64,000 nucleotides of DNA. It comes from Oscillospiraceae bacterium (GTDB lineage: Bacteria; Bacillota; Clostridia; Oscillospirales; Oscillospiraceae). The stretch covers positions 124,787 to 188,786 of the forward strand of contig SVMD01000001.1 in assembly GCA_015067615.1 (NCBI GenBank). The letters run 5' to 3'. The translations under genes and the position numbers were made by a program. Position 1 is the first letter of the stretch, and each line of letters starts with the position of its first letter. The notes under the pieces are model-generated. The model did not search any database and was not told the DNA's origin. It saw only the letters and a list, made by a program, of their open reading frames with translations. Positions 556 to 48,192 of this stretch are shown piece after piece.

Positions 556-613
556 ACCGACTTCACACATATTTTTCTGTCTCTGGGGAATACTGGCTTT
601 GAAAAGGCGGTGG

Positions 614-3062: not shown

Positions 3063-3088
3063 ATCAGCCTGAGCAAAAGGAGCGAGTT

Positions 3089-4086: not shown

Positions 4087-4319
4087 AAATCGGCAAAGTC
4101 ATCGGCTCGGTCTGGGCCACCCGGAAGGCCGCCTGTTTGCAGGGCCAGACCTTTTTGATCGTGAAATCCGAGGGGGACGAGATCGTGGCGGCGGATCAGG
4201 TGGGAGCAGGGCCCGGGGACCGGGTACTGCTGGTTACCGGCACCGTTGCCAGCCGCTTCTGCATGGATGCCCCGGTGGACGCGGCGGTGGTGGCCATCGT
4301 GGACGCCAAGAAGGAGTGA
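4083..4319 (+). CDS. eutN: Microcompartment vertex protein EutN (CcmL/EutN family)
   Basis: A 78-residue member of the CcmL/EutN family, whose pentamers close the vertices of the icosahedral shell. The family pattern is clear: MKIGKVIGSVWATRK at the N-terminus, LVDxxG-like VAADQVGAGPGDRVLLVTG in the middle, and a terminal AVVAIVDAKKE containing the conserved AVVAIVD strand. It overlaps the preceding gene by 4 bases and is followed 5 bases later by eutE. Length is short relative to some EutN proteins (about 95), mainly from a short loop. Confidence 0.92.
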   Translation: MKIGKVIGSVWATRKAACLQGQTFLIVKSEGDEIVAADQVGAGPGDRVLLVTGTVASRFCMDAPVDAAVVAIVDAKKE

Positions 4320-4324
4320 AACAC

Positions 4325-5752: not shown

Positions 5753-5768
5753 AAAAAGGGGGGATTCT

Positions 5769-6842
5769 ATGTCCGCTGAGAAAATCGTCATCGGCATTAT
5801 GGCCCTGTTTGCCCTGCTGGGGGCCCTGGACCGGATCTTCGGCAATCGTTTTGGATTGGGGAAGGAATTTGAGGAGGGAATCATGGCCATGGGGTCCCTG
5901 GCTATGGCCATGCTGGGTATCATTGCCCTGGCCCCGGTGCTGGCATCGGTGCTGAAGCCTGTGGTGGTGCCGGTATTTTCCCTGCTGGGGGCGGACCCTG
6001 CCATGTTTGCCGGGAGCATCCTGGCCTGTGATATGGGCGCCGGGTCCCTGGCCCTGGAGCTGACGGAAAACCGCCAGGCGGCCATGCTGGGCGGAGTCAT
6101 CACCGGGTCCATGCTGGGGGCCACCATCGTATTCACCATCCCGGTGGCCATGGGGATCCTCCGGGAGGAGGACCGGCCCGCCATGGCAAAGGGGATCCTC
6201 TGCGGCATCGTGACCATTCCGGTGGGTGTTTTGGTGGGGGGGCTGGTGGCGGGCTTCTCCATCGGAATGGTGCTGCGGAACCTGATCCCCATCGTGATTA
6301 TCGGCGCCCTCATCGCCTTCGGCCTGTGGAAATCCGAAGCGGCCATGGTCCGGGGCTTTTCCGCCTTCGGCAAGGGGGTGGTGGCCCTGGTGACGGCGGG
6401 GCTGGGGGCGGCCATTGTGGAGGAACTGACAGGCATTACCCTGATTCCCGGTTTGGCACCCCTCAGCGAAGGATTTCAGACCGTGGGGGCCATTGCCATC
6501 GTGCTGGCGGGGGCCTTTCCGCTGGTGGCGGTGATCACAAAGCTGCTGCGAAAGCCCCTGACGGCCCTGGGCCGGAGACTGGGCATCGATGACACCGCCG
6601 CCGCAGGCCTAATTGCCAGTCTTGCCAATTCCATCGCAACGTTAAATCTGGTCAAGGATATGACCTACCGGGGCAAGGTGGTGAATATCGCCTTTGCCGT
6701 ATCCGCGGCCTTTCTGCTGGGGGATCATCTGGGCTTCACGGCAGGCTTCGCCCCGGAGATGCTTACTGCCGTCATTGCGGGAAAGCTGGCCGGGGGGATC
6801 AGTGCCGTGGCCGTGGCCCTGTGGCTGACGAAGGAACGGTAA
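5769..6842 (+). CDS. eutH: Ethanolamine permease EutH
   Basis: A 357-residue integral membrane protein with about ten hydrophobic segments, matching EutH in length and in its opening EKIVIGIMALFALLGALDR. It is expected to admit ethanolamine across the cytoplasmic membrane. Conserved glycine-rich loops, such as SILACDMGAGSLALELTENR and GAAIVEELTGITLIPGL, are family-like. A GGGGG ribosome binding site lies at 5759-5763. The TAA stop (6840-6842) overlaps the left inverted end of a dispersed repeat, which separates eutH from eutB. Confidence 0.93.
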   Translation: MSAEKIVIGIMALFALLGALDRIFGNRFGLGKEFEEGIMAMGSLAMAMLGIIALAPVLASVLKPVVVPVFSLLGADPAMFAGSILACDMGAGSLALELTENRQAAMLGGVITGSMLGATIVFTIPVAMGILREEDRPAMAKGILCGIVTIPVGVLVGGLVAGFSIGMVLRNLIPIVIIGALIAFGLWKSEAAMVRGFSAFGKGVVALVTAGLGAAIVEELTGITLIPGLAPLSEGFQTVGAIAIVLAGAFPLVAVITKLLRKPLTALGRRLGIDDTAAAGLIASLANSIATLNLVKDMTYRGKVVNIAFAVSAAFLLGDHLGFTAGFAPEMLTAVIAGKLAGGISAVAVALWLTKER

Positions 6843-7020
6843 ATGATCGTTTACAAAAGCTTCCCCCTGGGGGGAAGCTGGCACCGCGAAAGCGGTGACT
6901 GATGAGGGGACTACCCTGCGATGATTGGAAATGCAATGGTTTTCCTGCTGCTGCCCCCTCATCCGCCCCTTCGGGGCACCTTCCCCCCAGGGGGAAGGCA
7001 TTACGCAAAACGATAATTTA
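6841..7020. repeat. Dispersed repeat, core type A, between eutH and eutB
   Basis: The left end AAATGATCGTTTA (6841-6853) has one mismatch; the right end runs to ACGATAATTTA at 7020. The core has hairpins CTTCCCCCTGGGGGGAAG and GCACCGC/GCGGTG followed by GACTGATGAGGGG, and ends with the complementary CCTTCCCCCCAGGGGGAAGG. The left end overlaps the eutH stop codon. Confidence 0.9.
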
Positions 7021-7039
7021 CCTCTGAAAGGGGAATACT

Positions 7040-8404
7040 ATGAAACTGAAAACCACTTTGTTGGGAAAAACATATCATTTCCGGGATGTGAAGGATGTGC
7101 TGGCCAAGGCCAATGAGGAAAAGACCGGCGACAAATTGGCGGGCCTGGCGGCGGAAACTGCCCAGGAGCGGGTCGCCGCCAAGGTGGTGCTGTCGGAAAT
7201 GCTTTTGGAGGAGCTGGGGGAGAATCCGGCGGTACCCTACGAAGCGGACGAGGTGACCCGGATCATCCAGGATGATGTGAACCGGGTCCAGTACGAGAAA
7301 ATCCGCCGCTGGACAGTATCCCAGCTCCGGGAATGGATCCTGTCGGAAAGTACCTCCGGGGCGGATATCCGGAGGGTAAGCCGTGGCCTTACCTCCGAGA
7401 TGGTGGCGGCGGTGTGCAAGCTCATGAGTAACCTGGACCTGATCTACGCCGCCAGCAAAATCACCGTCACTGCCCACTGCAACACCACCATCGGCCTGCC
7501 GGGGACCTTAAGCTGCCGCTTGCAGCCCAACCACACCACCGACGACCCGGAGGGCATCACCGCTTCCACACTGGAAGGGCTGTCCTTCGGAGCCGGTGAC
7601 GCGGTGATCGGCCTGAATCCGGTGACGGATTCTCCTGAACAGGTGGGCAAGGTGCTGCGGCGATTTCAGGAGATCAAGGAGCATTGGCAGATTCCTACCC
7701 AGATCTGCGTTCTGGCCCATGTGACCACTGCCATGAAGGCGGTGAAGGACGGGGCCCCCTGCGACCTGATTTTCCAGTCCATCGCAGGCTCGGAGGCGGG
7801 GAACGCCGCCTTCGGCTTCAATGCGGCAACCATTGAAGAGGCACGGCAGATGCTTCTGACTGAGGGCACGGCAGAGGGGCCCAACGTGATGTATTTTGAG
7901 ACCGGCCAGGGCTCGGAGCTTTCGTCCTCTGCCCACCACGGCACCGACCAGGTGACCATGGAGGCCCGGTGCTACGGCTTTGCCAAGCGCTTTTCGCCCT
8001 TCCTGGTGAATACGGTGGTGGGCTTCATCGGTCCGGAGTACCTGTATGACGCCCGGCAGGTGACCCGGGCGGGCCTGGAGGACCATTTTATGGGCAAGCT
8101 GACGGGGATTTCCATGGGCTGCGACTGTTGCTACACCAACCACATGAAGGCGGACCAGAACGATATCGAAAATCTGGCATCTCTGTTGACTCTGGCGGGC
8201 TGCAACTATTTTATGGGTATTCCCCATGGAGACGACATCATGCTCAACTACCAGACCACCGGCTTCCGGGAGACTGCGGCGCTGCGGGAGATCACCGGCA
8301 AGACCGCCATCCCGGAATTCCAGCGGTGGCTGGAAAAGATGGGCTTTGTGGAGAACGGAAAGCTCACAGCCAAGGCCGGCGATGGGTCCAGCCTGCTGTT
8401 TTAG
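7040..8404 (+). CDS. eutB: Ethanolamine ammonia-lyase large subunit EutB
   Basis: A 454-residue catalytic subunit of the adenosylcobalamin-dependent ethanolamine ammonia-lyase, which splits ethanolamine to acetaldehyde and ammonia. Length matches the family (about 453). The TIM-barrel core shows the family segments TAHCNTTIGLPGTLSCRLQP, GDAVIGLNPVTDS, YFETGQGSELSS and GCDCCYTNHMKADQNDIENL. The start at 7040 follows GAAAGGGG. It is separated from eutH upstream by a dispersed repeat and from eutC downstream by another one, which is unusual because eutB and eutC are normally nearly adjacent. Confidence 0.97.
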   Translation: MKLKTTLLGKTYHFRDVKDVLAKANEEKTGDKLAGLAAETAQERVAAKVVLSEMLLEELGENPAVPYEADEVTRIIQDDVNRVQYEKIRRWTVSQLREWILSESTSGADIRRVSRGLTSEMVAAVCKLMSNLDLIYAASKITVTAHCNTTIGLPGTLSCRLQPNHTTDDPEGITASTLEGLSFGAGDAVIGLNPVTDSPEQVGKVLRRFQEIKEHWQIPTQICVLAHVTTAMKAVKDGAPCDLIFQSIAGSEAGNAAFGFNAATIEEARQMLLTEGTAEGPNVMYFETGQGSELSSSAHHGTDQVTMEARCYGFAKRFSPFLVNTVVGFIGPEYLYDARQVTRAGLEDHFMGKLTGISMGCDCCYTNHMKADQNDIENLASLLTLAGCNYFMGIPHGDDIMLNYQTTGFRETAALREITGKTAIPEFQRWLEKMGFVENGKLTAKAGDGSSLLF

Positions 8405-8410
8405 TTGCAT

Positions 8411-8597
8411 AAATGATCGTTTAGCTTACAACTTGGCTCTCCCTCTGGGAGAGCTGGCACCGCTTTAGCGGTGGCTGAGAGGGCAAAAGACGTTACGACA
8501 CCCCCTCCGAGCCGCCGTACGGCGGCCCACCTCCCCCAAAGGTGGAGGCAAGGGCGCTCCCGCGCCACTGCAACCATCTAAGATAAACGATAATTTA
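8411..8597. repeat. Dispersed repeat, core type B, between eutB and eutC
   Basis: Ends AAATGATCGTTTA (8411-8423) and TAAACGATAATTTA (8584-8597). The core begins TTGGCTCTCCCTCTGGGAGA, continues with GCTGGCACCGC...GCGGTGGCTGAGAGGGC and closes with CCACCTCCCCCAAAGGTGGA. It parts the two subunit genes of the same enzyme. Confidence 0.92.
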
Positions 8598-8620
8598 CCT
8601 GCCCAGGAAAGGAGAAATCC

Positions 8621-9532
8621 ATGAACAAACAGGAACTGACCAATCTGGTGGCGGAGATCTTAAGCCAGATGAATGAACAGCAGCCCATGGTCAAGGGCAG
8701 CGACTACAAGACGGTGCTGCTTCAGCCGGACCGGCACGAAGTGGCCCCGGTGGATACCGGCTGTGCCTGCGATGTGACGGCGCTGGATCTGCGGAAGCTC
8801 TACCTGACGGAAAATCCGGAGAACAAGGAAAAATTCGCCCGGATGAAGGAAAAGACCCCTGCCCGGTTAGGCTCCGGCAAGGCCGGGGCCCGGTACAAAA
8901 CCATCACCATGCTCCGGTTCCGGGCGGACCACGCGGCGGCCCAGGACGCGGTGTTTTCCCAGGTGCCGGAGGACTATGCCCCCAAACATGGCATGACCCC
9001 GGTGCAGACAGAGTGTTCTTCCAAGGACGAGTACCTGACCCGGCCGGACAAGGGGCGGCGCTTTGATCAGGAGAATCAGCAGAAGATCCGGGCAGCTATA
9101 CCGGGTAAGCCCCGGGTGCTGATCGTGGTGGGGGATGGCCTCAGCTCCGCCGCCATTACCGCCAACGCTGTGGACTGTCTGGAAGCAATCAAGGATGGTC
9201 TGCGGGTGCGGAACATCGAATTCGGCCCGGATCTCTTCGTCCGGTACTGCCGGGTGGGTGCCGGGGACGCCATCGGCGATGTGACCGGCTGCGAGCTGGT
9301 CTGCATGCTGGTGGGGGAGCGGCCCGGTCTGGTGACGGACAAGAGTATGTCCGCCTATATCACCTACAGGCCCCACACCGGAGTTTCCGAGTCCGCCCGG
9401 ACGGTGGTCAGTAACATCCACGCCCAGGGTACCCCGGCTGTGGAGGCCGGGGCCTATATCGCGGAGCTCATCGAGATGATTCTGAAGAAAAAGGTCTCCG
9501 GCGTGGGCCTGCACACGGGAGCGGGCGCATGA
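8621..9532 (+). CDS. eutC: Ethanolamine ammonia-lyase small subunit EutC
   Basis: A 303-residue small subunit of ethanolamine ammonia-lyase, which together with EutB holds adenosylcobalamin. The C-terminal domain is strongly conserved: RVLIVVGDGLSSAAITANA, FVRYCRVGAGDAIGDVTGCE, VCMLVGERPGLVTDKSMSAY and TYRPHTGVSESARTVVSNIH. The N-terminal 40 residues are poorly conserved and contain a short amphipathic helix, the region used for compartment targeting in other EutC proteins. AAAGGAG precedes the ATG. The end overlaps eutL by 4 bases (ATGA). Confidence 0.96.
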   Translation: MNKQELTNLVAEILSQMNEQQPMVKGSDYKTVLLQPDRHEVAPVDTGCACDVTALDLRKLYLTENPENKEKFARMKEKTPARLGSGKAGARYKTITMLRFRADHAAAQDAVFSQVPEDYAPKHGMTPVQTECSSKDEYLTRPDKGRRFDQENQQKIRAAIPGKPRVLIVVGDGLSSAAITANAVDCLEAIKDGLRVRNIEFGPDLFVRYCRVGAGDAIGDVTGCELVCMLVGERPGLVTDKSMSAYITYRPHTGVSESARTVVSNIHAQGTPAVEAGAYIAELIEMILKKKVSGVGLHTGAGA

Positions 9533-10158
9533 TTCCGGTAAAGGTACTGGCGGTACGGTATCTGGCAAATGCTTCGCCTGCCCTGGCCCGGGGGCTGGGG
9601 GCTCCGGAGGGGTATCCAAGCTTGGGGATGCTGACCACCGACTGTGACGATGCCACCTATATCGCTCTGGATGCGGCTACGAAGGCAGCAGATGTGGAAG
9701 CCGTATACGGCAGGAGCTTCTATGCCGGGGCGGCCAATGCCTCCACACCCCATGCCGGGGAGGTCATCGGGATCCTGGCGGGAGCCACTCCCGGAGCGGT
9801 GAGAAGCGGCATGGAGGCGGCCCTGGCCGCACTGGGGAGACTGGGCTTTGAGGATGTCGGCGGTGTGCCCTATCTGGCCCACACGGTGGCCAGTGTGGGA
9901 AGTTACCTTGCCAAAGAGGCGGGGATTCCCCGGGGCAGCGCACTGGCATACCTGATTGCGCCGCCCCTGGAGGGGATGTATGCCCTGGACGCGGCGCTGA
10001 AGGCGGCAGATGTGAAGTTATGTAAACTATATGCGCCCCCCAGTGAGACGAATTTCGGAGGAGGACTCCTCAGCGGCAGCCAGTCCGCCTGCGCCGCGGC
10101 CTGTGGGGCTTTTGCCGGTGCGGTGGCGGAAGTGGCGGGAAAGCCGATTGAAAGCTAA
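9529..10158 (+). CDS. eutL: Microcompartment shell protein EutL
   Basis: A 209-residue tandem-domain BMC shell protein that forms trimers with a gated central pore. The two circularly permuted BMC domains cover roughly residues 1-105 and 106-209. Typical stretches are GYPSLGMLTTDCDDATYIALDA and YLIAPPLEGMYALDAALKAADV. It overlaps eutC by 4 bases. Its TAA stop (10156-10158) is shared with the left inverted end of a dispersed repeat, so the present stop may have come with, or been the target of, that insertion; the length is close to the family's (about 217). Confidence 0.93.
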   Translation: MIPVKVLAVRYLANASPALARGLGAPEGYPSLGMLTTDCDDATYIALDAATKAADVEAVYGRSFYAGAANASTPHAGEVIGILAGATPGAVRSGMEAALAALGRLGFEDVGGVPYLAHTVASVGSYLAKEAGIPRGSALAYLIAPPLEGMYALDAALKAADVKLCKLYAPPSETNFGGGLLSGSQSACAAACGAFAGAVAEVAGKPIES

Positions 10159-10345
10159 ATTATCGTTTACAATAGGAACTTAGCTCTCCCTTTGGGAGAG
10201 CTGGCACCGCCTTTGGCGGTGACTGAGAGGGCAAAAGACGTTACGACACCCCCTCCGAGCCGCCGTTCGGCGGCCCACCTCCCCCAAAGGTGGAGGCAAG
10301 GGCGCTCCCGCGCCAGTGCAACTATTGTAGATAAACGATAATTTT
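10157..10345. repeat. Dispersed repeat, core type B, between eutL and eutM
   Basis: Ends AAATTATCGTTTA (10157-10169) and TAAACGATAATTT (10332-10344). The core is nearly identical to the copy at 8411, including the TTACGACACCCCCTCCGAGC segment, and to the inverted copy at 37664. The first two bases are the last two of the eutL stop codon. Confidence 0.93.
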
Positions 10346-10375
10346 CCACACCAACTATGAAAGGAAGCAATTATT

Positions 10376-10681
10376 ATGGACACCAACAGCTTAGGTATGA
10401 TCGAAACCAAGGGCCTCATCGGGGCCATCGAAGCGGCGGACGCCATGGTCAAATCCGCCAATGTGACCCTGGTCGGTAAGGAGCAGGTGGGCGGCGGCCT
10501 GGTTACCGTCATGGTTCGCGGCGACGTGGGCGCTGTAAAGGCAGCCACGGACGCCGGGGCAGCGGCGGCGGAGAAGGTGGGGGAGCTGATCTCTGTTCAC
10601 GTCATCGCCCGGCCCCACACGGAGGTGGATGTGATTCTGCCCAAGGGCCGCGCACAGCAGAACCACCCCCAGGGTAAGTAA
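10376..10681 (+). CDS. eutM: Microcompartment hexameric shell protein EutM (PduA/EutM type)
   Basis: A 101-residue single-domain BMC protein, expected to form hexagonal tiles of the shell facets. The family pattern is complete: [59 protein letters not shown], then [18 protein letters not shown]. The usual pore glycine loop and the terminal ARPH motif are visible. The ATG at 10376 follows AAAGGAAG. It starts its own short transcription segment after a repeat and is adjacent (0 bases) to eutT. Confidence 0.96.
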
Positions 10682-11362
10682 ATGCTGTACACGGAAAGCT
10701 CTGTCCGGGACAATATCCGCAACCGGGAGGGAAAACGGGTCTTTTATCTGGGGAAGGGAGATACCCTGACTGCCGGGGCCCGGGACTGGCTGAGAAGTGA
10801 ACGAATCGAAATTCTCAGCGCCGAGGCTGCCCGGCCGGACCGGTTCCGGCTGGCCGGGGGCGGATATATGGATGAAAAGCCGGAGCATATGACCCACCTG
10901 AATGGAGAACTCCTGGTGCCCAAGACCCACCCCCGGATCGCTTTCCGAGGGAGCCTGGATACCCTGGAGGCGGATCTGATCCTGGCCCAGATAGCGGCAC
11001 CCCAGGCTGCCGGGAAGCTGGAGGAAATTCTGAATCTGAGCCGGAAAATTATGCGCTGTGACGTGCTGGAGGAGCCCCTGGAAAGTCTGATGCTCTGCGG
11101 TCTGACGGAAGGGGAACTGCGGCAGCGGAGTCACCGACCCCAGGAATACTATGGGATCCCTCACTTTATGCCCTCGGCAGCGGATGGGGAGGCTATAGCC
11201 CGGCTGAACCGGGCCCGGTGCGCTGCCCGGGAGGCAGAGCTGCGGGCAGCGGAAGCCTTTTCCGACCGGGAGGGGAATCCCACCCGGGAGGATATTCTGA
11301 AAGCACTGAACCGGATCAGTAGTATGCTCTATCTTCTGATGCTGGAGGAGAAGAGCCGATAA
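10682..11362 (+). CDS. eutT: Cob(I)alamin adenosyltransferase EutT, form without the Cys metal motif
   Basis: A 226-residue EutT-family ATP:corrinoid adenosyltransferase, supplying adenosylcobalamin to EutBC. Recognisable EutT stretches are HMTHLNGELLVPKTHPRIAF (69-88), IMRCDVLEEPLESLMLCGLT and REDILKALNRISSMLYLLML. The enterobacterial enzyme has an HX11CCX2C metal-binding motif just before the THL segment; here the corresponding region (about 50-72) contains no cysteine. Metal-independent EutT forms lacking this motif are known from Listeria and related Firmicutes, so this is probably that class. It directly abuts eutM. Confidence 0.9.
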   Translation: MLYTESSVRDNIRNREGKRVFYLGKGDTLTAGARDWLRSERIEILSAEAARPDRFRLAGGGYMDEKPEHMTHLNGELLVPKTHPRIAFRGSLDTLEADLILAQIAAPQAAGKLEEILNLSRKIMRCDVLEEPLESLMLCGLTEGELRQRSHRPQEYYGIPHFMPSAADGEAIARLNRARCAAREAELRAAEAFSDREGNPTREDILKALNRISSMLYLLMLEEKSR

Positions 11363-11367
11363 GATGA

Positions 11368-11395
11368 CCGGAGAGGCGGGAATCCGCCTCTCCGG
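11368..11395 (+). terminator. Hairpin at the end of the eut locus
   Basis: A perfect 12-bp stem (CCGGAGAGGCGG / CCGCCTCTCCGG, loop GAAT) starts 6 bases after eutT. The T-rich tail is weak (TGCTGCGTTCAATT), so termination may be partial. Confidence 0.65.
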
Positions 11396-11414
11396 TGCTG
11401 CGTTCAATTATTTC

Positions 11415-35849: not shown

Positions 35850-36019
35850 GAATTATTGTTTACATTAGACACTTGGCTCCCCCTCTGGGGGAGCTGGCAC
35901 CGCCTTTGGCGGTGACTGAGAGGGCAAAAGACGTTACGACACCCTCTCCGTCAGTCCTTCGGACTGCCACCTCTCCCAAAGGGAGAGGCAAGGCGACTGC
36001 GCCGCTAAACGATAATTTT
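35850..36019. repeat. Dispersed repeat, core type B (short)
   Basis: Left end GAATTATTGTTTA (two mismatches) at 35850-35862, right end TAAACGATAATTT at 36006-36018. Core TTGGCTCCCCCTCTGGGGGA to CTCTCCCAAAGGGAGAGGCA. It marks the left side of the phage head cassette. Confidence 0.88.
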
Positions 36020-36094
36020 ATTATTTTTATGGAGTTGCACTATTTAGTGCAACTTTTTTTATTTTCCGGGGTGCGGATGAAAGGGAGGGGAAGT

Positions 36095-36415
36095 ATGAAG
36101 GAAAACAATGGGGAGAAATCCCTGCGGTCCCGGATTCGGGGCGGTGAGATCCGGCGGCGGGATGTGACACGGCGGCTGGCTGAGCTGGCCTTCGGCAAGG
36201 CAAACGACTGTGTCCGGCTGGCGCTGGAGGACGATCCCATGCTGGACAAGCTGGACCTTAGCCTGCTCAGCGAGGTCAAGCGCAACGACAAGGGCACCGT
36301 GGAGATCAAGCTCATCGACCGGCTCCGGGCACTGGAACAGCTGGCACTGGTTGCTGAGGAGGAAAAGACGGACCTGGAATCCTTCCTGCAGGCGCTGCAG
36401 GAGGAGGGCTCATGA
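36095..36415 (+). CDS. Probable phage terminase small subunit
   Basis: A 106-residue, highly charged protein directly upstream of the terminase large subunit and overlapping it by 4 bases (ATGA). It is almost entirely helical: a basic N-terminus (SLRSRIRGGEIRRRDVTRR) is followed by acidic helices with a final coiled-coil-like part (LRALEQLALVAEEEKTDLESFLQAL). I cannot identify a fold, but size, charge and position match TerS proteins. Start 36095 follows GGGAGGGGA. Confidence 0.6.
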   Translation: MKENNGEKSLRSRIRGGEIRRRDVTRRLAELAFGKANDCVRLALEDDPMLDKLDLSLLSEVKRNDKGTVEIKLIDRLRALEQLALVAEEEKTDLESFLQALQEEGS

Positions 36416-37665
36416 GCTACGCCGCCTTCTCGCCGAAGCAGAAACGGGTGCTCTCCTGGTGGGTGCCGGGAAACCGGGACTGCAAAAAGGAGGCCATCGT
36501 CTGCGATGGGGCGGTGCGGTCGGGGAAGACCATGGCCATGGGACTGAGCTTCTTTCTCTGGGCCTTTGCCTGCTTCGACGGGCAGCGGTTCGGGGTCTGC
36601 GGAAAGACCATATCCAGTCTGCGGCGAAACGTCCTGTCGGAAATTTTGCCGCGGCTGGAGGGGATGGGGGCCACCTGGAAGGAGAAGCGGACGGAAAATC
36701 TGGTAACCGTCCGCTTCCTGGGCCGGGAAAACAAGTTCTACATCTTCGGCGGCCGGGATGAAAGCTCCGCCAGCCTCATTCAGGGCATCACCTTTGCAGG
36801 GATATTACTGGATGAGGTGGCCCTGATGCCCCGGAGCTTTGTGGAGCAGGCCTGCGCAAGATGCTCCGTGGCGGGGAGCAGGCTCTGGTTCAACTGCAAT
36901 CCGGCGGGGCCCAGTCACTGGTTCTACCAGACCTGGATTCTGGAGGCGGAGAAGCGCAACTGCCTGCGGCTGCACTTTACCATGGAGGACAATCCCTCCC
37001 TGACGAAGGAGATCCGGGAGCGGTACGAGCGGCTGTACACCGGAGTCTTCTACCGGCGGTTCATCCAGGGCCAGTGGGCCCAGGCGGAGGGGCGGGTGTA
37101 CGACTTCTTTGAGCCGGAGATGGTAAAGCCTGTGCCGGAGGGGCCCTTCGAGAAATGGTACATTTCCTGTGACTACGGCACGGTGAATCCCACCTCCATG
37201 GGGCTCTGGGGCCGGTGCCGGGGGACCTGGTACCGGGTGAAGGAATTCTATTTTTCCTCCCGGGTGGCCCAAAGGCAGATGACCGATGAGGAATACGCCA
37301 CGGCCCTTCAGAATCTGGCCGGGGAAAGGAAGATCACCGCGGTGATCGTGGATCCGTCGGCCGCCAGCTTCATTGAAGTGCTGCGGCGCCGGGGCTGGCG
37401 GGTGCAGAAGGCGGACAACGACGTGCTGTCGGGGATCCGACTTACTTCAGACTGCCTGAAGGACGGCAGAATCGTCATCTGCGAGGGCTGCGCCGACTGC
37501 TTACGGGAGATGGATGAGTACGTCTGGGATCTGTCCGCCGGGAACAAGGACCGGGTGAAGAAGGAGCACGACCACGCCATGGACGATATGCGCTATTTTG
37601 TGTCTACGGTGCTGAAAGAGCAGACAGGGGGCTTTGCGGCTCTGAGCGTGGAGAGAAGAAGGTAA
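36412..37665 (+). CDS. terL: Phage terminase large subunit (PBSX-type)
   Basis: A 417-residue DNA-packaging ATPase-nuclease. Walker A CDGAVRSGKTMAM is near residues 30-42, Walker B GILLDEVALMP near 129-139, and the coupling motif WFNCNPAGPSHWFY follows. The C-terminal RNase H-like nuclease begins with YISCDYGTVNPTSMGLWG (first Asp) and has IVDPSAASFIEVL (second) and HDHAMDDMRYFV (third). All key residues are present, so it may be active. Its TAA stop (37663-37665) overlaps the end of a dispersed repeat. Confidence 0.95.
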   Translation: MSYAAFSPKQKRVLSWWVPGNRDCKKEAIVCDGAVRSGKTMAMGLSFFLWAFACFDGQRFGVCGKTISSLRRNVLSEILPRLEGMGATWKEKRTENLVTVRFLGRENKFYIFGGRDESSASLIQGITFAGILLDEVALMPRSFVEQACARCSVAGSRLWFNCNPAGPSHWFYQTWILEAEKRNCLRLHFTMEDNPSLTKEIRERYERLYTGVFYRRFIQGQWAQAEGRVYDFFEPEMVKPVPEGPFEKWYISCDYGTVNPTSMGLWGRCRGTWYRVKEFYFSSRVAQRQMTDEEYATALQNLAGERKITAVIVDPSAASFIEVLRRRGWRVQKADNDVLSGIRLTSDCLKDGRIVICEGCADCLREMDEYVWDLSAGNKDRVKKEHDHAMDDMRYFVSTVLKEQTGGFAALSVERRR

Positions 37666-37851
37666 ATTATCGTTTATCTACAATAGTTGCACTGGCGCGG
37701 GAGCGCCCTTGCCTCCACCTTTGGGGGAGGTGGGCCGCCGAACGGCGGCTCGGAGGGGGTGTCGTAACGTCTTTTGCCCTCTCAGTCACCGCCCACGCGG
37801 TGCCAGCTCTCCCAAAGGGAGAGCCAAGTTCCTATTGTAAACGATAATTTA
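37664..37851. repeat. Dispersed repeat, core type B, inverted, inside the phage cassette
   Basis: Ends AAATTATCGTTTA (37664-37676) and TAAACGATAATTTA (37838-37851). The core is the reverse complement of the copy at 10157. It separates terL from the portal gene and overlaps the terL stop. Confidence 0.93.
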
Positions 37852-37877
37852 GTTCACAAGCGGAAAGGAGAATCAAC

Positions 37878-39014
37878 ATGAAATGGAAACGGAAGGAAAG
37901 GGTTCCGGTGGCTGTGACCCAGCTCCGGGGCGGGGAGACCCATCCCTTTGGGGCGCTGCGGAGCTTTGCGCCCCTGGGCGGCGGCGAGGAGCGGCTCTAC
38001 CGGCAGATGCGTCAGGCGATCCCGGTGCTGGATGCGGCGGTGGGGAAGCTGGTGCGCCTCAGCGGCGGCTTTCAGGTGCAGTGCCGGGATGGGGAGAGTC
38101 AGCGGAAACTGGAGGACTTTCTGCGAACTTGCCCCTGCGGCAGGGGGCAGGTGGGCATCAACAGCTTCCTGGCGGGGTACCTGGACAGCCTGCTGACCTA
38201 TGGCCGTGCCATCGGGGAACTGGTGGTGGCAGGCGGCAAAGTCCGGGCGGTTTGCTGGGGGGATGTGACGCTGCTGGATATTCAGGAAGGGGAGAGCCTG
38301 CTGGATACCGTTATCTGGGGTCCTGACAGCCATGGGCTCATGCGGCCCCTGCCTTACCAGAATCTGCTGCTGTTCACCACCTTGAATCCGGAGCCCGGGG
38401 CTCCCTACGGCGTCAGCATTTTCCGGGGGATGCCCTTTTTGGCGGACATTCTGCTGAAAATTTACAACACCATCGGCGTCAACTGGGACCGGGCAGGGAA
38501 CATCCGCTACAGCGTCATCTGCAAGGGCGGCGAGGATATGGACCCGGCGGTGGTCCAGGAGCGGGGCCGTCAGGTGGCCACGGAATGGGCCAGGGCCATG
38601 GAGGATGGAAAAAACGGCACCGTCCGGGATTTCGTGGCCGTGGGAGATGTGGAGATCAAGGTCATCGGCGGTGAAAGTCCCATCCTGGACAGCGAGGTGC
38701 CTGTACGGCAGATTTTGGAACAGCTGGTGGCCAAAACCGGCCTGCCGCCCTTCCTGCTGGGACTGAACTGGTCCACCACCGAGCGGATGAGCACCCAGCA
38801 GGCGGACCTGCTGACTTCCGAACTGTGGGCACTGCGCAGAAGTGTACAGCCTGCGGTGGAGAAGATCTGTAGGTCTTATCTGGCGCTGGAGGGGCTGGAT
38901 CCGGATGTGGAGATCCTCTGGGATGATATCAGCTTACAGGATATCACCGAGGAGGCCAGGGCGGAGCTGTATCGGGCTCAGGCCGAGAAGTATCGAAAGG
39001 AAGCAGAATCTTAA
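37878..39014 (+). CDS. Phage portal protein
   Basis: A 378-residue portal-family protein, expected to form the dodecameric ring through which DNA is packaged. Portal-like features are the N-terminal RQAIPVLDAAVGKLVRL, the LAGYLDSLLTYGRAIGELVV stem region, LPYQNLLLFTTLNPEPGAPYGVSIFRGM and the C-terminal helices with LGLNWSTTERMSTQQADLL. It is shorter than SPP1-type portals (about 500), as in PBSX-like elements. ATG at 37878 follows GGAAAGGAG. Confidence 0.88.
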   Translation: MKWKRKERVPVAVTQLRGGETHPFGALRSFAPLGGGEERLYRQMRQAIPVLDAAVGKLVRLSGGFQVQCRDGESQRKLEDFLRTCPCGRGQVGINSFLAGYLDSLLTYGRAIGELVVAGGKVRAVCWGDVTLLDIQEGESLLDTVIWGPDSHGLMRPLPYQNLLLFTTLNPEPGAPYGVSIFRGMPFLADILLKIYNTIGVNWDRAGNIRYSVICKGGEDMDPAVVQERGRQVATEWARAMEDGKNGTVRDFVAVGDVEIKVIGGESPILDSEVPVRQILEQLVAKTGLPPFLLGLNWSTTERMSTQQADLLTSELWALRRSVQPAVEKICRSYLALEGLDPDVEILWDDISLQDITEEARAELYRAQAEKYRKEAES

Positions 39015-39016
39015 AG

Positions 39017-39056
39017 GAGATTGCCACGCCAGTCTGCGGACTGGCTCGCAATGACA
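39017..39056. repeat. Short dispersed palindromic repeat
   Basis: GAGATTGCCACGCCAGTCTG ... ACTGGCTCGCAATGACA. The centre CCAGTCTGCGGACTGG is a hairpin. This short sequence is of the type dispersed in many Firmicute genomes between genes; here it separates portal and protease genes. Confidence 0.6.
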
Positions 39057-39076
39057 TGCATTTTAGGAGGGACATA

Positions 39077-39970
39077 ATGCAAATTAAGAAGGGAACGGAA
39101 GTAAAAACCGGGGGCGTGCCCACGGCGGTGCAGCTGGGGGCCATTAACGCCCTGGCGAAGGCGGAGCTGACCGGAGAACAGGTGTATGTGTTCTCCCTGC
39201 GGCTGTGCGACGATCAGGTGGACCGGGATTTTGAGCGGTTTGACACCGGGGCGCTGCCCGCTCTGGCGAAGCTGTTCATCGGCAAGACCGGCGTGGTGGA
39301 TCACAAGTGGAGCAGCGAAAACCAGGTGGCCCGGATCTTTGCTGCGGAGACGGTGATGGAAAATGGCGTCAGCTATATCAAGGCCTGGGCTTACATCCGT
39401 CGGGGCGGCAGCAATGACGAGGTAATCGCGGATATCGAAGCGGGGATTAAGAAGGAAGTGTCCGTGGGCTGCGCCATGGGACGTTCGGTTTGCTCCGTCT
39501 GCGGCAGTGAGTACGGCAGCTGCGGCCATCAGAAGGGGCAGCATTACGACGGGGTTTTGTGCTGCGCCATTTTGAAGGAACCCATGGATGCCTACGAATT
39601 TTCCTTCGTGGCGGTGCCTGCCCAGGTCAATGCCGGGGTTCTGAAGGGCATGGGCAGAAACAAGTGCCTGAAGGAGCTGGCTGATGAATTTGGGGCCCAG
39701 AGCGAGTATCGGTCATTGTTCAAGGAGGCGCAGCTGGGGCGGCAGTACCGCAAAGAGCTGGAGGACAGCGTGGTGCGGCTGTGTCTGGCGCTGGAGCTGG
39801 GGGCGGAGGCAGATACCTACCGGGGCGTGGCGAAAATGGCCGCTGCGGAGGACCTGATGAAGCTGAAGTCGGCGCTGGAACAGCGGCTTGCGGAGAGCCT
39901 GCCGGTTCAGACCCAGCTGGGCGGCAATGCAGGCAGCATGGAAGCTGTGGAGAGCGGATTTCTGATTTAA
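39077..39970 (+). CDS. Phage prohead protease-like protein
   Basis: A 297-residue protein encoded between portal and major capsid genes, where the HK97-type maturation protease normally lies. Protease-like features are DDQVDRDFERFDTGAL, the histidine in VVDHKWSS and the EVSVGCAMGRSVC strand, followed by AYEFSFVAVPAQVNAG, which matches the ELSFVP(A)-type end of U35/U9 domains. Four cysteines in CSVCGSEYGSCGH form a zinc-finger-like insert. Residues 210-297 are helical, possibly the scaffold part. Start 39077 follows AGGAGGGA. Confidence 0.78.
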   Translation: MQIKKGTEVKTGGVPTAVQLGAINALAKAELTGEQVYVFSLRLCDDQVDRDFERFDTGALPALAKLFIGKTGVVDHKWSSENQVARIFAAETVMENGVSYIKAWAYIRRGGSNDEVIADIEAGIKKEVSVGCAMGRSVCSVCGSEYGSCGHQKGQHYDGVLCCAILKEPMDAYEFSFVAVPAQVNAGVLKGMGRNKCLKELADEFGAQSEYRSLFKEAQLGRQYRKELEDSVVRLCLALELGAEADTYRGVAKMAAAEDLMKLKSALEQRLAESLPVQTQLGGNAGSMEAVESGFLI

Positions 39971-40083
39971 TGAAGAATGATAAATGCAGAAGGAAGAATG
40001 AATGTGTCTGCTTCGCAGACTATATAAATCATTTTCGAAGGAAATACATCAATTCTGCATTCTACATTCTGAATTCTGCATTA
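39971..40083. repeat. AT-rich imperfect palindromic intergenic element
   Basis: AAATGCAGAA near 39982 is answered by TTCTGCATT at 40053 and again at 40074, and GTCTGC/GCAGAC forms a hairpin at 40006-40020. AT-rich compared with its surroundings. No gene seen from 39971 to 40136. Confidence 0.6.
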
Positions 40084-40142
40084 TATTGCGGTTTATCCGG
40101 GTTTCCCGGTGACCATACATTACTTTTAGGAGGAAAATGAAA

Positions 40143-41168
40143 ATGGGTTACGACAATCTGAAACTGGAAAAGGGTATGTACCGTCAGGCGGGTAAGAGCT
40201 TTACCCAGGTGCTGGAATCTCTGGATCCCAGCGAGAATTACCGGGGCACCGCGCTGGAGGGCACCGACGCCTTCCAGCGGCAGCTGAAGCGCTTTGGTAT
40301 CCGGGCCAAGGGCGCCGGTTCTTCTCCTGTGGAGAAGTTCTTCGCCACCATGGATTCCGCTGTGCTGTTCCCTGAGTACATCGCCCGGACCGTCCGCCAG
40401 GGTATGGAGGAAAATGACATTCTGCCTGCCATCGTGGCGACCACCACTGTCATCGACGCCATGGACTACCGCTCCATCTACTCCGTCCCCACCGACGAGG
40501 ACAAGGCACTGCAGGACGTGGCTGAGGGCGCTGCCATCCCCGAGACCACCATCAAGACCAAGGAGCATCTGGTGAGCCTGAAAAAGCGGGGCCGCATGCT
40601 GGTTGCCTCCTACGAGGCTCTGCGGTTCCAGAAGCTGGACATCTTCGGCGTCATGCTGCGCCAAATCGGTGCCTACATTCAGAAGCAGCAGCTTGCCGAT
40701 GCGGTGGGTGTGATCCTGAACGGCGACGGCAACGACAACGCCGCCGTCCAGTATAAGATCGGCACCTCCCCCATCTCCGGTACTTCCGGTACTCTGGGCT
40801 ATGATCAGCTGGTGGAGTTCTGGAGCCAGTTTGATCCTTACACCATGAATACCCTGCTGTGCGGCAATGGCACCATGACCAAGCTGCTGAAGGTGCCTGA
40901 GCTGCAGAATCCCCTCACCGGCCTGAATTTCCAGGGTACTGGCAAGCTGACTACCCCCCTGGGTGCCCAGCTGCACCGAACCTCTGCTGTGGGTGAGAAT
41001 ATGCTCATCGGTCTGGACAACCGCTACGCTCTGGAGATGGTCCGGGCCGGGGATGTGCTGGTGGAATATGACAAGCTCATCGACCGTCAGCTGGAGCGTG
41101 CCGCCATCACCTCCATTTCCGGCTTCTGCAAGATCTGTGACGGCGCTTCCGCCGCGCTGAGCGTATGA
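40143..41168 (+). CDS. Phage major capsid protein (HK97 fold)
   Basis: A 341-residue capsid protein. After a 60-residue N-terminal arm come the HK97-type blocks: PVEKFFATMDSAVLFPEYIA, then VATTTVIDAMDYRSIYS, the spine-helix region TKEHLVSLKKRGRMLVASYEAL, and the P-domain end LGAQLHRTSAVGENMLIGLDN. AGGAGG placed 9 bases before the ATG at 40143 favours this start over 40137. Codon use is strongly biased to frequent codons, as in highly expressed genes. It overlaps the next gene by 4 bases. Confidence 0.92.
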   Translation: MGYDNLKLEKGMYRQAGKSFTQVLESLDPSENYRGTALEGTDAFQRQLKRFGIRAKGAGSSPVEKFFATMDSAVLFPEYIARTVRQGMEENDILPAIVATTTVIDAMDYRSIYSVPTDEDKALQDVAEGAAIPETTIKTKEHLVSLKKRGRMLVASYEALRFQKLDIFGVMLRQIGAYIQKQQLADAVGVILNGDGNDNAAVQYKIGTSPISGTSGTLGYDQLVEFWSQFDPYTMNTLLCGNGTMTKLLKVPELQNPLTGLNFQGTGKLTTPLGAQLHRTSAVGENMLIGLDNRYALEMVRAGDVLVEYDKLIDRQLERAAITSISGFCKICDGASAALSV

Positions 41169-41524
41169 TTCTGACGGATCAGGTATATGCCCAGGCTGCC
41201 CTGCTTGCAGGGCAGCTGGAGGGGAATCAGGTGGATATCCTCCGGGCCCTCTGTGCCGCAGCCACTGCGTCCCTGACGGCCCGGCTCCGGGAGGGGCTGC
41301 GTCCGGAGGACTGCAAGGCGGATTTCATCGCCTCCGCCAGCCTTTATGCTCTGGCTGCCCTGAACGCGGTGAAGGATGGGGATACTCTGGAGCAGTTTAC
41401 CGCCGGGGATTTGACCATCCGGAAATCCGCTTCCGCGGACCCTGCCTCCAATGTGCTGCGCAACCAGGCGGAGCTGATGATCGCGCCCTACTTAAAGGAC
41501 CGGTTCTGCTTCCGGGGGGTGTAG
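41165..41524 (+). CDS. Phage head-tail connector (gp6-like)
   Basis: A 119-residue mostly helical protein following the major capsid gene with a 4-base overlap. It resembles the HK97 gp6/SPP1 gp15 connector class in size and place (QVYAQAALLAGQLEGNQVDI, then ALCAAATASLTARLREGL, then FTAGDLTIRKSASADPAS). Function inferred from order and helical content; no diagnostic motif. Confidence 0.7.
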   Translation: MILTDQVYAQAALLAGQLEGNQVDILRALCAAATASLTARLREGLRPEDCKADFIASASLYALAALNAVKDGDTLEQFTAGDLTIRKSASADPASNVLRNQAELMIAPYLKDRFCFRGV

Positions 41525-41525
41525 C

Positions 41526-41870
41526 ATGCAGCGGATGGTAAGTGGGATCCTGCGGCAGTACGGAACCCAGATGCAGCTGGACCGGGGCGGTGACGTGATT
41601 TCGGTGAAGGGCTTCTTTCAGCCGGTGCGGTCCAAAAGCTGGCAGAGCATGGTGAATCTGGAGACACCTCTGGGGGAAGTCTACCGGGGGCAGTATATCT
41701 ACATCGGCCCGGCGGATGTGGCGGTATCCGAGGGTGATGTGCTGACCGTGGGGGAGAAGCGGTATTTCCTGCGGCGGGTGGAAGTGTATTACCACCGGGA
41801 CCAGGCGGTGTACACCTGGGGAATGTGCGTGGAGAAGGGGGTCAACGATACATGGGGATCTCGATCTTAG
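41526..41870 (+). CDS. Phage head-closure/minor structural protein
   Basis: A 114-residue beta-rich protein (GGDVISVKGFFQPVRSK, GQYIYIGPADVAVSEGDVLT, KRYFLRRVEVYYHRDQAVYTWG) one base after the connector gene. The position matches head-closure or head-tail joining proteins of siphoviruses. The last 19 bases overlap the next gene's start in another frame. Confidence 0.65.
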   Translation: MQRMVSGILRQYGTQMQLDRGGDVISVKGFFQPVRSKSWQSMVNLETPLGEVYRGQYIYIGPADVAVSEGDVLTVGEKRYFLRRVEVYYHRDQAVYTWGMCVEKGVNDTWGSRS

Positions 41871-42562
41871 AACTGGTGCTGCGCCGGCTCCGGGAGGAGA
41901 ATTTCCTGGCGGATGTGGCCTTTCCGGGGCAGAAATATCCGGCCATTACGGAGCCGGTGGCGGCGGTCCATATTGAAAAGGTGGACCGGGCCAATCTGAC
42001 CGTCACCGTGGAGGTCAGCATCATCTGCCCCGCCTCCCTGGGCGGTGTCTACTGCGAGGTGGAGGCCCTCCGGGCCACGGAGGTGCTGCGTTGGGCTGGG
42101 GCTACCTGCATCCAGAACGGATGCGAGTATGACGGTCTGGCCCAGGTATATGTGGTCAGTGTTCTGGCTACCTTCACCTGCGTCACCGAGGCGGAGGATT
42201 GCGTCATGGGCCCCGGCTTCAAGGTATATCTGAATGAGATCCTGATGCCCTATGCTGTCTCCTTCCAGGCGGAGCAGACGGTGGATGTGGACGCCATCCA
42301 CGAGATCGGCGAGGATGCGCCCATCGGCATCCGCAAGGGCAGCTGGGTGTGGAAGCTGCAGCTGGAGGAGCTGATCCCATCGGGCAGTCTGGAAGCGGAC
42401 GACAGCGGCGGCCTTTTCCAGCTGCGGCTGGAGAGCGACACGGTGACGGAGACCTATTACCACTGCCGCTGGACCTCCGTTCGCCGGGAGTACACCCGGC
42501 AGGGGCTGCGGCGGATCCGCAGCGGCATCAGCATGCTCAGACAGGAGGAAAGCTATGGATAA
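41852..42562 (+). CDS. Phage structural protein of unknown role
   Basis: A 236-residue soluble protein. The N-terminal 100 residues (ILELVLRRLREENFLADVAF, VAAVHIEKVDRANLTVTVEV) resemble tail-completion/joining proteins; the C-terminal part is beta-rich (WKLQLEELIPSGSLEADDSG, FQLRLESDTVTETYY). No motif is decisive. ATG at 41852, overlapping the preceding gene by 19 bases; the stop overlaps the next gene by 8 bases. Confidence 0.55.
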   Translation: MGISILELVLRRLREENFLADVAFPGQKYPAITEPVAAVHIEKVDRANLTVTVEVSIICPASLGGVYCEVEALRATEVLRWAGATCIQNGCEYDGLAQVYVVSVLATFTCVTEAEDCVMGPGFKVYLNEILMPYAVSFQAEQTVDVDAIHEIGEDAPIGIRKGSWVWKLQLEELIPSGSLEADDSGGLFQLRLESDTVTETYYHCRWTSVRREYTRQGLRRIRSGISMLRQEESYG

Positions 42563-42920
42563 GCTGAGCTTCAGAACCTTTACCTGGCCCACCAATCCGG
42601 AGGTGTATCAGGAGGAATTCATCCGGGAGGCCCTGTACGCCAAAACCGATTCCGGCGACACGGTGTTTTCCGGTATGGGACCCATGAAGCGGGTGATCAC
42701 CGGCAGCGGGTCCTTCTTCGGAACCAGTGCCTACACCAATTTCAACAAGCTGGCGGAGCTGTTTGCCGCAGGAGGGATGGGCGCCCTGACCCACCCGGTC
42801 TGCGGCATGCGGACGGTGTATTTTACGAAGCTGGAGATGATGCAGAGTCCCAAGTCGGACTATGTGGCCTACAGCTTTGAGTTCAAGGAAGCAGATGAGG
42901 ACGGGGCCATCCCTAAGTAA
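42555..42920 (+). CDS. Last gene of the phage cassette, possible tail-tube or joining protein
   Basis: A 121-residue protein (KLSFRTFTWPTNPEVYQEEF at the start; FSGMGPMKRVITGSGSFFGT and KLEMMQSPKSDYVAYSFEFK later), beta-rich in the second half. It resembles the N-terminal part of tail-associated circularisation or joining proteins but the assignment is weak. The gene ends with a terminator and no tail, lysis or lysogeny gene follows. Confidence 0.5.
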   Translation: MDKLSFRTFTWPTNPEVYQEEFIREALYAKTDSGDTVFSGMGPMKRVITGSGSFFGTSAYTNFNKLAELFAAGGMGALTHPVCGMRTVYFTKLEMMQSPKSDYVAYSFEFKEADEDGAIPK

Positions 42921-42926
42921 ACAGGA

Positions 42927-42956
42927 GATCCGCAGCCAAAGGGCTGCGGATCTTTT
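42927..42956 (+). terminator. Terminator closing the phage head cassette
   Basis: Stem GATCCGCAGCC/GGCTGCGGATC followed by TTTTC. Confidence 0.85.
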
Positions 42957-43050
42957 CATTTCCGGGCTTCCAACCGCAGGTTGGAAGCATTTTTTGCCAT
43001 ATCAACCAGCGCTTCATTGCATTTCAGGCTGAGCCATGTTACTTTTTAGA

Positions 43051-43084: not shown

Positions 43085-43789
43085 ATGACCCTTGGAAATA
43101 AGATCGCGAATTACAGAAAGAATCTGGGAATCACCCAGGATGCGCTGGCCCAGCAGCTGGGCGTCACCAATCAGGCGGTGAGCAAGTGGGAGTCGGATCA
43201 GTGCTGCCCGGATGTGATGCTGCTGCCGAAGATAGCGGACATTTTTGGAATCTCCCTGGACGAACTGTTCGGACGGGAAATGCCCCGGAGGGAGCTTGCC
43301 GCTGTGGAACCTGCCTGGCCCGACGACAACGTGCTTCGGGTGGCGGTGTATGTGGGCAGCAGGCTGGTCTGCGGCGGCAGGGCAGAGCCGGGGAGCGAGT
43401 ATGCCTATAACGGTGATGTGGCCGGTGTTCTCAGCCGTGTGACCGTATCCTGCGGCGATGTGCAGGGCGATGTTTACGGCGATATCAGTGTGGCGGGCTC
43501 TCTGAACTGCGGCAACGTAGAAGGCGACGTGGACGCAGGGAAGACCGTCAACTGCGGAAATGTGGGCGGTGACGTGTCTGCCGGTTCCGCTGTCAGCTGC
43601 GGTAACGTGGGAGGCGATGTGGATGCGGGAGCCCATGTGGGCTGCGGAAATGTCGGCGGTGATGTGGATGCAGGCACCGACGTGAAATGCGGTGATGTGG
43701 GCGGCGACGTGGACGCCGGAGGAAAGGTGGAATGCGGCGGCGTGGAGGGCGATATCGATGCCGGCGGCGCTGTAATCATCCGCAAATAA
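43085..43789 (+). CDS. XRE-type HTH protein with six exact-length 15-residue repeats
   Basis: A 234-residue protein. Residues 1-65 are a Cro/CI-type helix-turn-helix (ITQDALAQQLGVTNQAVSKWE). After a linker, residues 140-229 contain six consecutive 15-residue repeats of the form V-x-C-G-(N/D)-V-G-G-D-V-D-A-G-x-x; one irregular repeat precedes them. The period, central GD and lack of large hydrophobics suggest a beta-solenoid like bactofilins or DUF4097 proteins, i.e. a polymerising or scaffolding domain. No transmembrane helix. It directly follows the phage cassette and has its own promoter and terminator. The role is unknown. Confidence 0.8.
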   Translation: MTLGNKIANYRKNLGITQDALAQQLGVTNQAVSKWESDQCCPDVMLLPKIADIFGISLDELFGREMPRRELAAVEPAWPDDNVLRVAVYVGSRLVCGGRAEPGSEYAYNGDVAGVLSRVTVSCGDVQGDVYGDISVAGSLNCGNVEGDVDAGKTVNCGNVGGDVSAGSAVSCGNVGGDVDAGAHVGCGNVGGDVDAGTDVKCGDVGGDVDAGGKVECGGVEGDIDAGGAVIIRK

Positions 43790-47523: not shown

Positions 47524-48192
47524 ATGGAACTGGGGGAGAAGATCCGCCGGGCGCGGCTGGAGGCCGGACTATCCCAGCGGCAGCTGTGCGGGGAGGAGAT
47601 CACCCGCAATATGCTGTCCCTGATCGAAAATGGGGCGGCGAAGCCTTCCATGAAGACCCTGCGCTACCTTGCGGATCAGCTGGGGAAGCCCCTGAGCTTT
47701 TTCCTGGATGAAGCGGCCCCGGAGCATGACCGGATTCTGGAATCCGCCCGGGCCCTTAACCAGGCAGAGGAAGCCCTGGCAGCAGGGAAGGATATCTATG
47801 CAGCCCAGCTGCTGGAAAAGGTGACCTGGCCCCGGCTTCGGCGGGAAACGCTGCTGCTCTGTGCCAAATGCCCTGGGGCAAAGCTGACCGAAGTGGCAGC
47901 GCAGCTGCCGTCACTGGATGAGGAACTGCTGCTCCGGGCGGAGGCGGCTCTGGCAGATGGGCTGCCGGACAGATGCGAAAAGCTGCTGCTGGCTGTGGAA
48001 GATTCCACAAGTCCCCGGTGGCAGCTGCTGATGGGCAGGCTCTGTATGGCCCGGCTGGATTGGGCCAGGGCGGCAGCGCATCTGGAACAGGCAGAGGCTG
48101 CCTGCCTGGAAGCAGTCCCGCTTCTGGAAGTCTGCTTCCGGGAATTGGGGGACTACAGGCGGGCCTACGAATATGCCTGCAAGGGAAGATAG
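47524..48192 (+). CDS. XRE regulator with TPR-like helical domain
   Basis: A 222-residue protein. Residues 1-65 are a Cro/CI-type helix-turn-helix (KIRRARLEAGLSQRQLCGEE, ITRNMLSLIENGAAKPSMKTL). Residues 75-222 are helix pairs rich in alanine and leucine, of TPR type (LNQAEEALAAGKDIYAAQLL, ARLDWARAAAHLEQAEAACL, YRRAYEYAC). Such HTH-TPR proteins often bind a peptide or partner that switches DNA binding. No peptide gene is recognised next to it. The start at 47524 follows GGGGGTGACC. Confidence 0.85.
   Translation: MELGEKIRRARLEAGLSQRQLCGEEITRNMLSLIENGAAKPSMKTLRYLADQLGKPLSFFLDEAAPEHDRILESARALNQAEEALAAGKDIYAAQLLEKVTWPRLRRETLLLCAKCPGAKLTEVAAQLPSLDEELLLRAEAALADGLPDRCEKLLLAVEDSTSPRWQLLMGRLCMARLDWARAAAHLEQAEAACLEAVPLLEVCFRELGDYRRAYEYACKGR

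Follow-up and report, generated by a model that had tools for sequence, protein, structure and literature searches.

A phage-like head operon of Oscillospiraceae that looks like a variant gene transfer agent-like element with most of its tail lost

We analysed a stretch of 64,000 nucleotides (the window) from Oscillospiraceae bacterium GCA_015067615.1, which holds a head operon of nine genes on the + strand at 36095-42920. These are phage-like head genes with a packaging motor, located in the chromosome, in the order small terminase (TerS), large terminase (TerL), portal, T4-gp21-like protease/scaffold, major capsid, two connector genes, a terminator/tube fusion and a tail-cap protein. The original prediction had named packaging, portal, maturation, capsid and head-closure genes, and PHROGs and Pfam identified this operon. 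Its TerL motifs, capsid codon bias and terminator also stood; its count of eight genes, the absence of a tail and the repeats as a feature of the cassette did not. For conservation, Faecousia-type loci were chosen through their capsid, taking the best 80 of 138 loci, and the 48 of 63 that hold the whole stretch are called complete loci.

TerS (36095-36415) has 106 amino acids (aa) and lacks the N-terminal DNA-binding part, a helix-turn-helix (HTH), of Terminase_2, as PF03592 (expectation value (E) 6e-6) matches only at profile positions 54-137 of 141. Ten hand-picked TerS proteins were compared with Pfam. The match begins at profile position 50-56 in all five Faecousia-type proteins, which are of the window type, and at 1-19 in the five chosen by eye for an HTH. 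A model of the N-terminal HTH, which is of limited reach, matches none of the 48 Faecousia-type TerS open reading frames (ORFs), window included. It matches 16 of 42 other loci; this is a lower bound because the model, which was built from only six TerS of Oscillospiraceae, overlooks plain HTH parts outside this family (e.g. L171 and L182, found by Pfam). In the available text of PMC7947584, the TerS of RcGTA, a gene transfer agent (GTA), likewise has no HTH, and in that of PMC12946183 the TerS of FpGTA, the GTA of Faecalibacterium, has no obvious DNA-binding domain. By profile, the window TerS thus appears to share with RcGTA the lack of sequence-specific DNA binding.

TerL (36412-37665; 417 aa) combines an ATPase with an RNase H-like nuclease (phrog_2, E 3e-52; PF03237; PF17289). 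All 48 complete loci have the Walker A motif SGKT, and 43 of them also have Walker B (hhDE) and three nuclease motifs, in line with the intact active-site residues of the original prediction.

The portal protein (37878-39014; 378 aa) matches phrog_30703 (E 7e-151). It has no Pfam match, and a search of its own genome with PF04860 gave nothing because the portal is too divergent.

The prohead protease (39077-39970) carries a C-terminal helical, scaffold-like part and a Cys/His-rich insert. It is T4-gp21-like by structure alignment with a second aligner; Foldseek alone gave no match at E 0.001.

The major capsid protein (40137-41168; 343 aa) matches phrog_3922 (E 2e-105) and PF25209 (E 3e-15), with a mean column identity of 76% over 29 homologues. 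In codon adaptation to RpoB, its gene ranks above 43 of the 51 other called window genes, a strong bias as originally noted, and the remaining cassette genes rank above 9 to 30 of 51.

Two small genes follow, both in 48 of 48 complete loci. The first, g6 (41165-41524), is a probable head-tail adaptor by position and conservation and has no convincing family match. The second, g7 (41526-41870), is a probable head-closure protein with a weak match to phrog_82 (Hc1, E 0.22).

The last two genes are tail-related, although the cassette had been described as tail-less. By profile comparison and fold, g8 (41852-42562) consists of two fused parts, a tail terminator at about residues 1-120 and a tail tube at about 120-236. 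The tail-cap gene g9 (42555-42920), DNA_circ_N-like, matches PF07157 (E 5e-5) and phrog_184, a baseplate hub family (E 1e-7); it lacks the LysM part of longer forms and is found in 22 of 48 complete loci. Terminator-like hairpins, seen in the sequence and not assigned to a strand, close the operon at 42926-42988.

Relatives show a likely origin of these tail parts. We drew gene maps for 100 loci and 39 more, and re-scored gene presence by models on stop-to-stop ORFs because the gene caller had overlooked some genes on the wrong strand. Other Oscillospiraceae genera carry a long form, in which the head genes, with a small gene (about 112 aa, labelled dec by us) before the capsid, are followed by terminator, sheath, tube and chaperone. 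Further downstream lie small ORFs (below about 280 aa) at the site of the tape measure, g9 with LysM, hub, spike, baseplate J and a tail protein; a long tape measure is absent. In Oscillibacter valericigenes, the long form ends with an 83-aa ORF without family match and then an endolysin (phrog_21357, E 2e-30). The long form stands nearly alone in some IMG/VR entries of 13.3-14.3 kb, for example L228, L231 and L233. At the tape-measure site, a small ORF with a conserved C-terminal RDARRYDGG motif was noted (L108:14056-14637 and L187:1356-1907), and L171 and L190 have very short forms of it (47-49 aa).

For comparison we used the gene order of PBSX, a GTA-like defective prophage of Bacillus subtilis. 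By order, not by sequence, the long form agrees with PBSX in terminases, portal, protease, capsid, connectors, sheath and tube, and onward in chaperone, LysM protein, hub, spike, baseplate J, tail protein and endolysin; it differs in having no long tape measure. The window form differs further in that sheath, baseplate and lysis genes are missing and terminator and tube are fused. The full set of a PBSX-like contractile element, with sheath, tube and baseplate in the cluster, is present in the long form; Faecousia-type loci lack its sheath and baseplate. The long form, a PBSX-like head with a contractile tail, is likely the parent of the cassette.

Sheath, hub and baseplate J occur in none of 57 Faecousia-type loci, window included, within 9 kb after the capsid, and g8 is present in 55 of them. 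For comparison, there were 34 loci from the rest of the Oscillospiraceae in which 2.3 kb or more follow the capsid (six contigs are represented twice). The sheath is found in 30 of them, of which 29 also have hub and baseplate J and one is cut by the contig end. Intermediate states exist. In genome G114 (one contig, L095 and L120), terminator and tube lie in one ORF, with g9 and hub and no sheath; in G012 and G179 of the same genus, a sheath adjoins the capsid. In L122 and L123, which belong to a single genus, terminator (141 aa), tube (135 aa) and g9 (113 aa) are individual genes; these loci have no sheath, hub or baseplate, and the hub was not found elsewhere in their genomes either. The 18 loci from other families of the order comprise four with sheath, eight with hub and baseplate J without sheath, two with hub only and four with none of the three. 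In one of these families (L178:8420-9148, - strand), the tube is joined to g7, a fusion unlike that in Faecousia. As sheathless and fused forms are scattered over genera and families, sheath loss and fusion arose more than once or their history is mixed by transfer. We also observed a cassette in a genus of another family (L172) whose last gene is terminator-like and is immediately followed by genes of glycogen synthesis; this head-only form seems independent.

With such a parent, a non-DNA container or a tailocin-like weapon could be considered, as PBSX itself is described as acting like a tailocin without injecting DNA (PMC12946183). A contractile weapon is impossible without sheath and baseplate, and the conserved terminase and portal point to DNA as the cargo. 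Both functions are very unlikely, and the capsid container for something encoded elsewhere that had been proposed is unlikely.

The capsid was found in 50 of 101 genomes of the genus (Faecousia-type Oscillospiraceae; 15 of the 28 good genomes), in 71 of 200 family genomes (48 of 106 genera), in 71 of 394 order genomes (42 of 168 genera) and in 11 of 391 class genomes, three of which lie outside the order and are distant. It is nearly always single copy, the exceptions being split or short pieces (G103, G576) and one two-copy genome (G506), and no listed match contains an inner stop.

Of the 48 complete loci, 47 keep all four core genes (TerL, portal, protease and capsid) intact. The order and strand from TerS to g8 are identical in 46 of 48, and g8 is found in 46 of 48. 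We calculated the ratio of nonsynonymous to synonymous substitution rates (dN/dS) as the median over pairs with dS 0.1-0.8. It is 0.15 for capsid, 0.22 for TerL, 0.22 for portal, 0.26 for protease, 0.24 for g8, 0.29 for g7 and 0.11 for g9 (20 pairs only). Pairs that reach 1 or more are confined to g6 (1 of 206 pairs), g7 (2 of 86) and g8 (6 of 51). Purifying selection in relatives, a check suggested with the original prediction, is thus observed.

These data bear on whether the cassette is simply what is left of a prophage and persists by chance. Genes for tail, lysis and integration are indeed missing, the window has no dec gene between protease and capsid, repeats have been inserted, and g9 was not found in 26 of 48 complete loci. 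Against this stand the intact core genes in constant order, a core-gene dN/dS far below 1 and the capsid codon bias, and we regard a remnant as very unlikely. The degraded prophage of the original prediction also does not fit the closeness of the capsid tree to the host tree.

Capsid and RpoB trees were compared for 24 of 30 genomes searched (three had no RpoB match and three pieces only). The Mantel r is 0.85 (0 of 9999 permutations as high), and 0.76 within the genus (2 of 9999). The trees share 10 of 21 splits, and 500 label shuffles give at most 3. Inheritance is mainly vertical and single-copy, under purifying selection.

Capsid-forming satellites encode a head-only set of terminase, portal, protease, capsid and connectors. 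The cassette, with head genes and no tail genes, resembles such a capsid-forming phage-inducible chromosomal island, which would fill its own heads with its own DNA and borrow tails from a helper phage; helper-supplied tails would make tail loss tolerable, and the flanks do differ between species. However, neither an integrase nor an excision module is seen in the window, the capsid phylogeny tracks RpoB, the cassette is almost always single copy, and TerS lacks the part that would recognise its own DNA. A satellite is therefore improbable.

In the window, inspection of the ORF list by eye showed no integrase, replication gene, holin, endolysin, sheath or baseplate gene, and none of 10 flanking proteins matched a PHROG for structure, lysis or integration. 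This agrees with the original prediction, except that it had also listed a lysogeny repressor as missing: two regulators (43085-43789 and 47524-48192) hit PHROGs that bear the name transcriptional repressor, although this HTH family is very general. The cluster is thus seen without self-mobilising genes (integrase, replication), as is characteristic of a GTA. The regulator at 43085-43789 (+), just downstream of the cassette, joins an XRE-type HTH to a repetitive GCGNV.GDVDAG beta-helix-like tail, and a homologue (54%) lies directly after g9 in L045.

Tail genes were also sought genome-wide. Baseplate J was not found in the genome of the window nor in 18 of 19 other Faecousia-type genomes, and the hub was not found in 17 of 17 genus genomes. 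The sheath was not found in the genome of the window by PF04984, but this negative is weak because the model is insensitive for this family: six of 10 capsid-bearing, PF04984-negative genomes (G031, G061, G172, G055, G076, G069) have a capsid-adjacent sheath by a locus-built model (L119, L121, L124, L125, L126, L127).

These searches bear on a two-locus GTA like FpGTA, in which the cassette would be operon I and an unseen operon II would supply tail tip, fibre and lysis. FpGTA is split in this way; in one strain about 125 kb separate the two operons, and no tail is identifiable (in the available text of PMC12946183). The absence of baseplate J and hub speaks against it, as does that of a sheath within the reach of PF04984, in searches that covered these three families. 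Such an arrangement is unlikely, if somewhat less so than a satellite.

A close capsid occurs in only five of 50,697 phage records, all unannotated faecal contigs (52-68% identity); three named phage records match it at under 27%. The portal gives a similar picture, with these five contigs at 40-54% and a single named phage at 31%. Hence no named phage among these records carries a close capsid or portal. Gene context was read by eye for four of the five contigs (MT838993 was left out). MT835508 (46.7 kb) holds a cassette as well as rpoA within a series of ribosomal protein genes, and in MT835769, MT835952 and MT836604 the cassettes have housekeeping neighbours, among them thymidylate synthase, recG, rpe and thioredoxin. 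The four contigs fit packaged host DNA but also contamination; we rejected them as proof of packaging because two rpoB contigs are in the same faecal-virome data set.

Taken together, the cassette looks like a known type of element, a GTA, in a variant form with the tail mostly lost. We consider it probable that it is a domesticated PBSX-type head that is filled non-specifically with host DNA and is reduced to a head with a stub tail. This is based on gene content and order, intact genes under purifying selection, mainly vertical single-copy descent, the absence of adjoining sheath, hub and baseplate, the terminator-tube fusion and the loss of the N-terminal DNA-binding part of TerS. The PBSX-like long form, the codon bias of the capsid gene, the lack of a close capsid or portal in named phages and the GTA-like packaging reported for Oscillospiraceae (PMC12946183) also speak for it. 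It agrees with the retained capsid island or gene transfer-like module of the original prediction; of the other two proposals, the degraded prophage is not supported and the container is unlikely.

In this element, the sheath would have been lost by deletion, so that terminator and tube, separated by the sheath gene in the long form, came to be joined. TerS without its DNA-binding part would let TerL start on any chromosomal DNA, and TerL would fill the protease-matured head via the portal. The seal would be formed by adaptor, stopper and a ring of the terminator-tube fusion, together with g9 in loci that have it. The product is likely a DNA-filled head closed by a short neck, because motor, portal, protease and capsid are intact. 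Release would have to come from cell death or from lysis genes at another site. If DNA is delivered at all, this might use a separate adsorption locus, as in the two-operon FpGTA, or uptake by competence proteins; all 21 genus genomes examined have ComEC, whether they carry the capsid (14) or not (7), so it does not discriminate.

Faecalibacterium belongs to the order Oscillospirales. FpGTA resembles the cassette in its head operon with TerS, TerL, portal, scaffold and capsid, and in having no identifiable tail, as compared by description, not by sequence; it differs in its second operon with baseplate, fibre and lysis genes (PMC12946183). The same source reports that PBSX packages dispersed chromosome pieces of 13.4 kb. 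RcGTA of the Alphaproteobacteria has a complete tail, and RcGTA and its relatives are of a different phage ancestry from the cassette.

Several observations weigh against a GTA-like element. About half of the genus (51 of 101 genomes; 13 of the 28 good ones) has no capsid, so it is dispensable or often lost, and its intactness in the loci studied partly reflects that these were chosen by capsid. Besides the patchy g9, TerS and g6 evolve fast (median dN/dS 0.40 and 0.54). The 11 of 21 splits that differ between capsid and RpoB trees leave room for some transfer. Flanks vary between loci; neighbours recur but are often rearranged. Several sheath-bearing long-form loci of other genera also lack the TerS HTH by the same model, so its loss is not strictly tied to tail loss. 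The single-domain models of terminator and tube meet in one ORF in no more than 2 of 57 Faecousia-type loci; the fusion in this group is supported by profile comparison and fold. Near the cassette, neither a lysis gene nor one for receptor binding was found, and the search for a second locus covered sheath, baseplate J and hub. Finally, the element is known here from its genes, from which packaging, release and delivery are inferred.

In PMC12946183 (2026), GTA-like packaging was assigned to Ruminococcaceae in 17 of 25 events, to Oscillospiraceae (Onthomonas) in 3 of 25 and to Christensenellaceae in 3 of 25. In its available text, the gene cluster is described in Faecalibacterium only, and its main text contains neither Faecousia nor Oscillibacter. 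We found no description of this Oscillospiraceae element in the literature searched, whose coverage excluded most subscription journals and bioRxiv preprints. A wider reading, held tentatively, is that a vertical GTA lineage centred on Oscillospirales has shed its contractile tail repeatedly, with a tail-less GTA in Faecousia, and that this cluster lies behind the Oscillospiraceae packaging seen in faeces. The forms that result would be a sheathless one with free terminator and tube, a sheathless fusion with hub and, in Faecousia, a fusion plug that has at most g9 below it; we put this wider reading somewhat below an even chance. Equally tentative is that DNA in plugged heads could be freed by cell death and taken up by competence or another route.

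Few GTAs are known outside Alphaproteobacteria. If correct, a conserved cassette of abundant gut Clostridia would provide a genetic basis for host-DNA packaging in faecal particles, and relatives with graded tail loss would offer a way to study how a tail is shed while the packaging motor is kept.

Whether relatives carry the cassette at the same place has a mixed answer. Of 43 Faecousia-type loci with 15 kb or more of sequence, 22 have at least one flank gene in common with the window (at least 60% identity), but flanks are often shuffled. The commonest are a small ATPase-like gene, an ABC transporter pair and the NifS/Rrf2 group.

The repeat between TerL and portal (37664-37850, not assigned to a strand) is an interspersed element with a 26-bp core. 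This core has 20 copies in the genome (at most 2 mismatches) and four in the window, and is therefore not cassette-specific. Two copies in opposite orientation (35870-36020 and 37664-37850) bracket TerS-TerL. Another repeat-like element (39971-40120) lies where relatives carry dec; its 30-bp core occurs once in the window. Far upstream, at about 600-11400 (+), ORF starts read by eye indicate an ethanolamine-type microcompartment-like operon.

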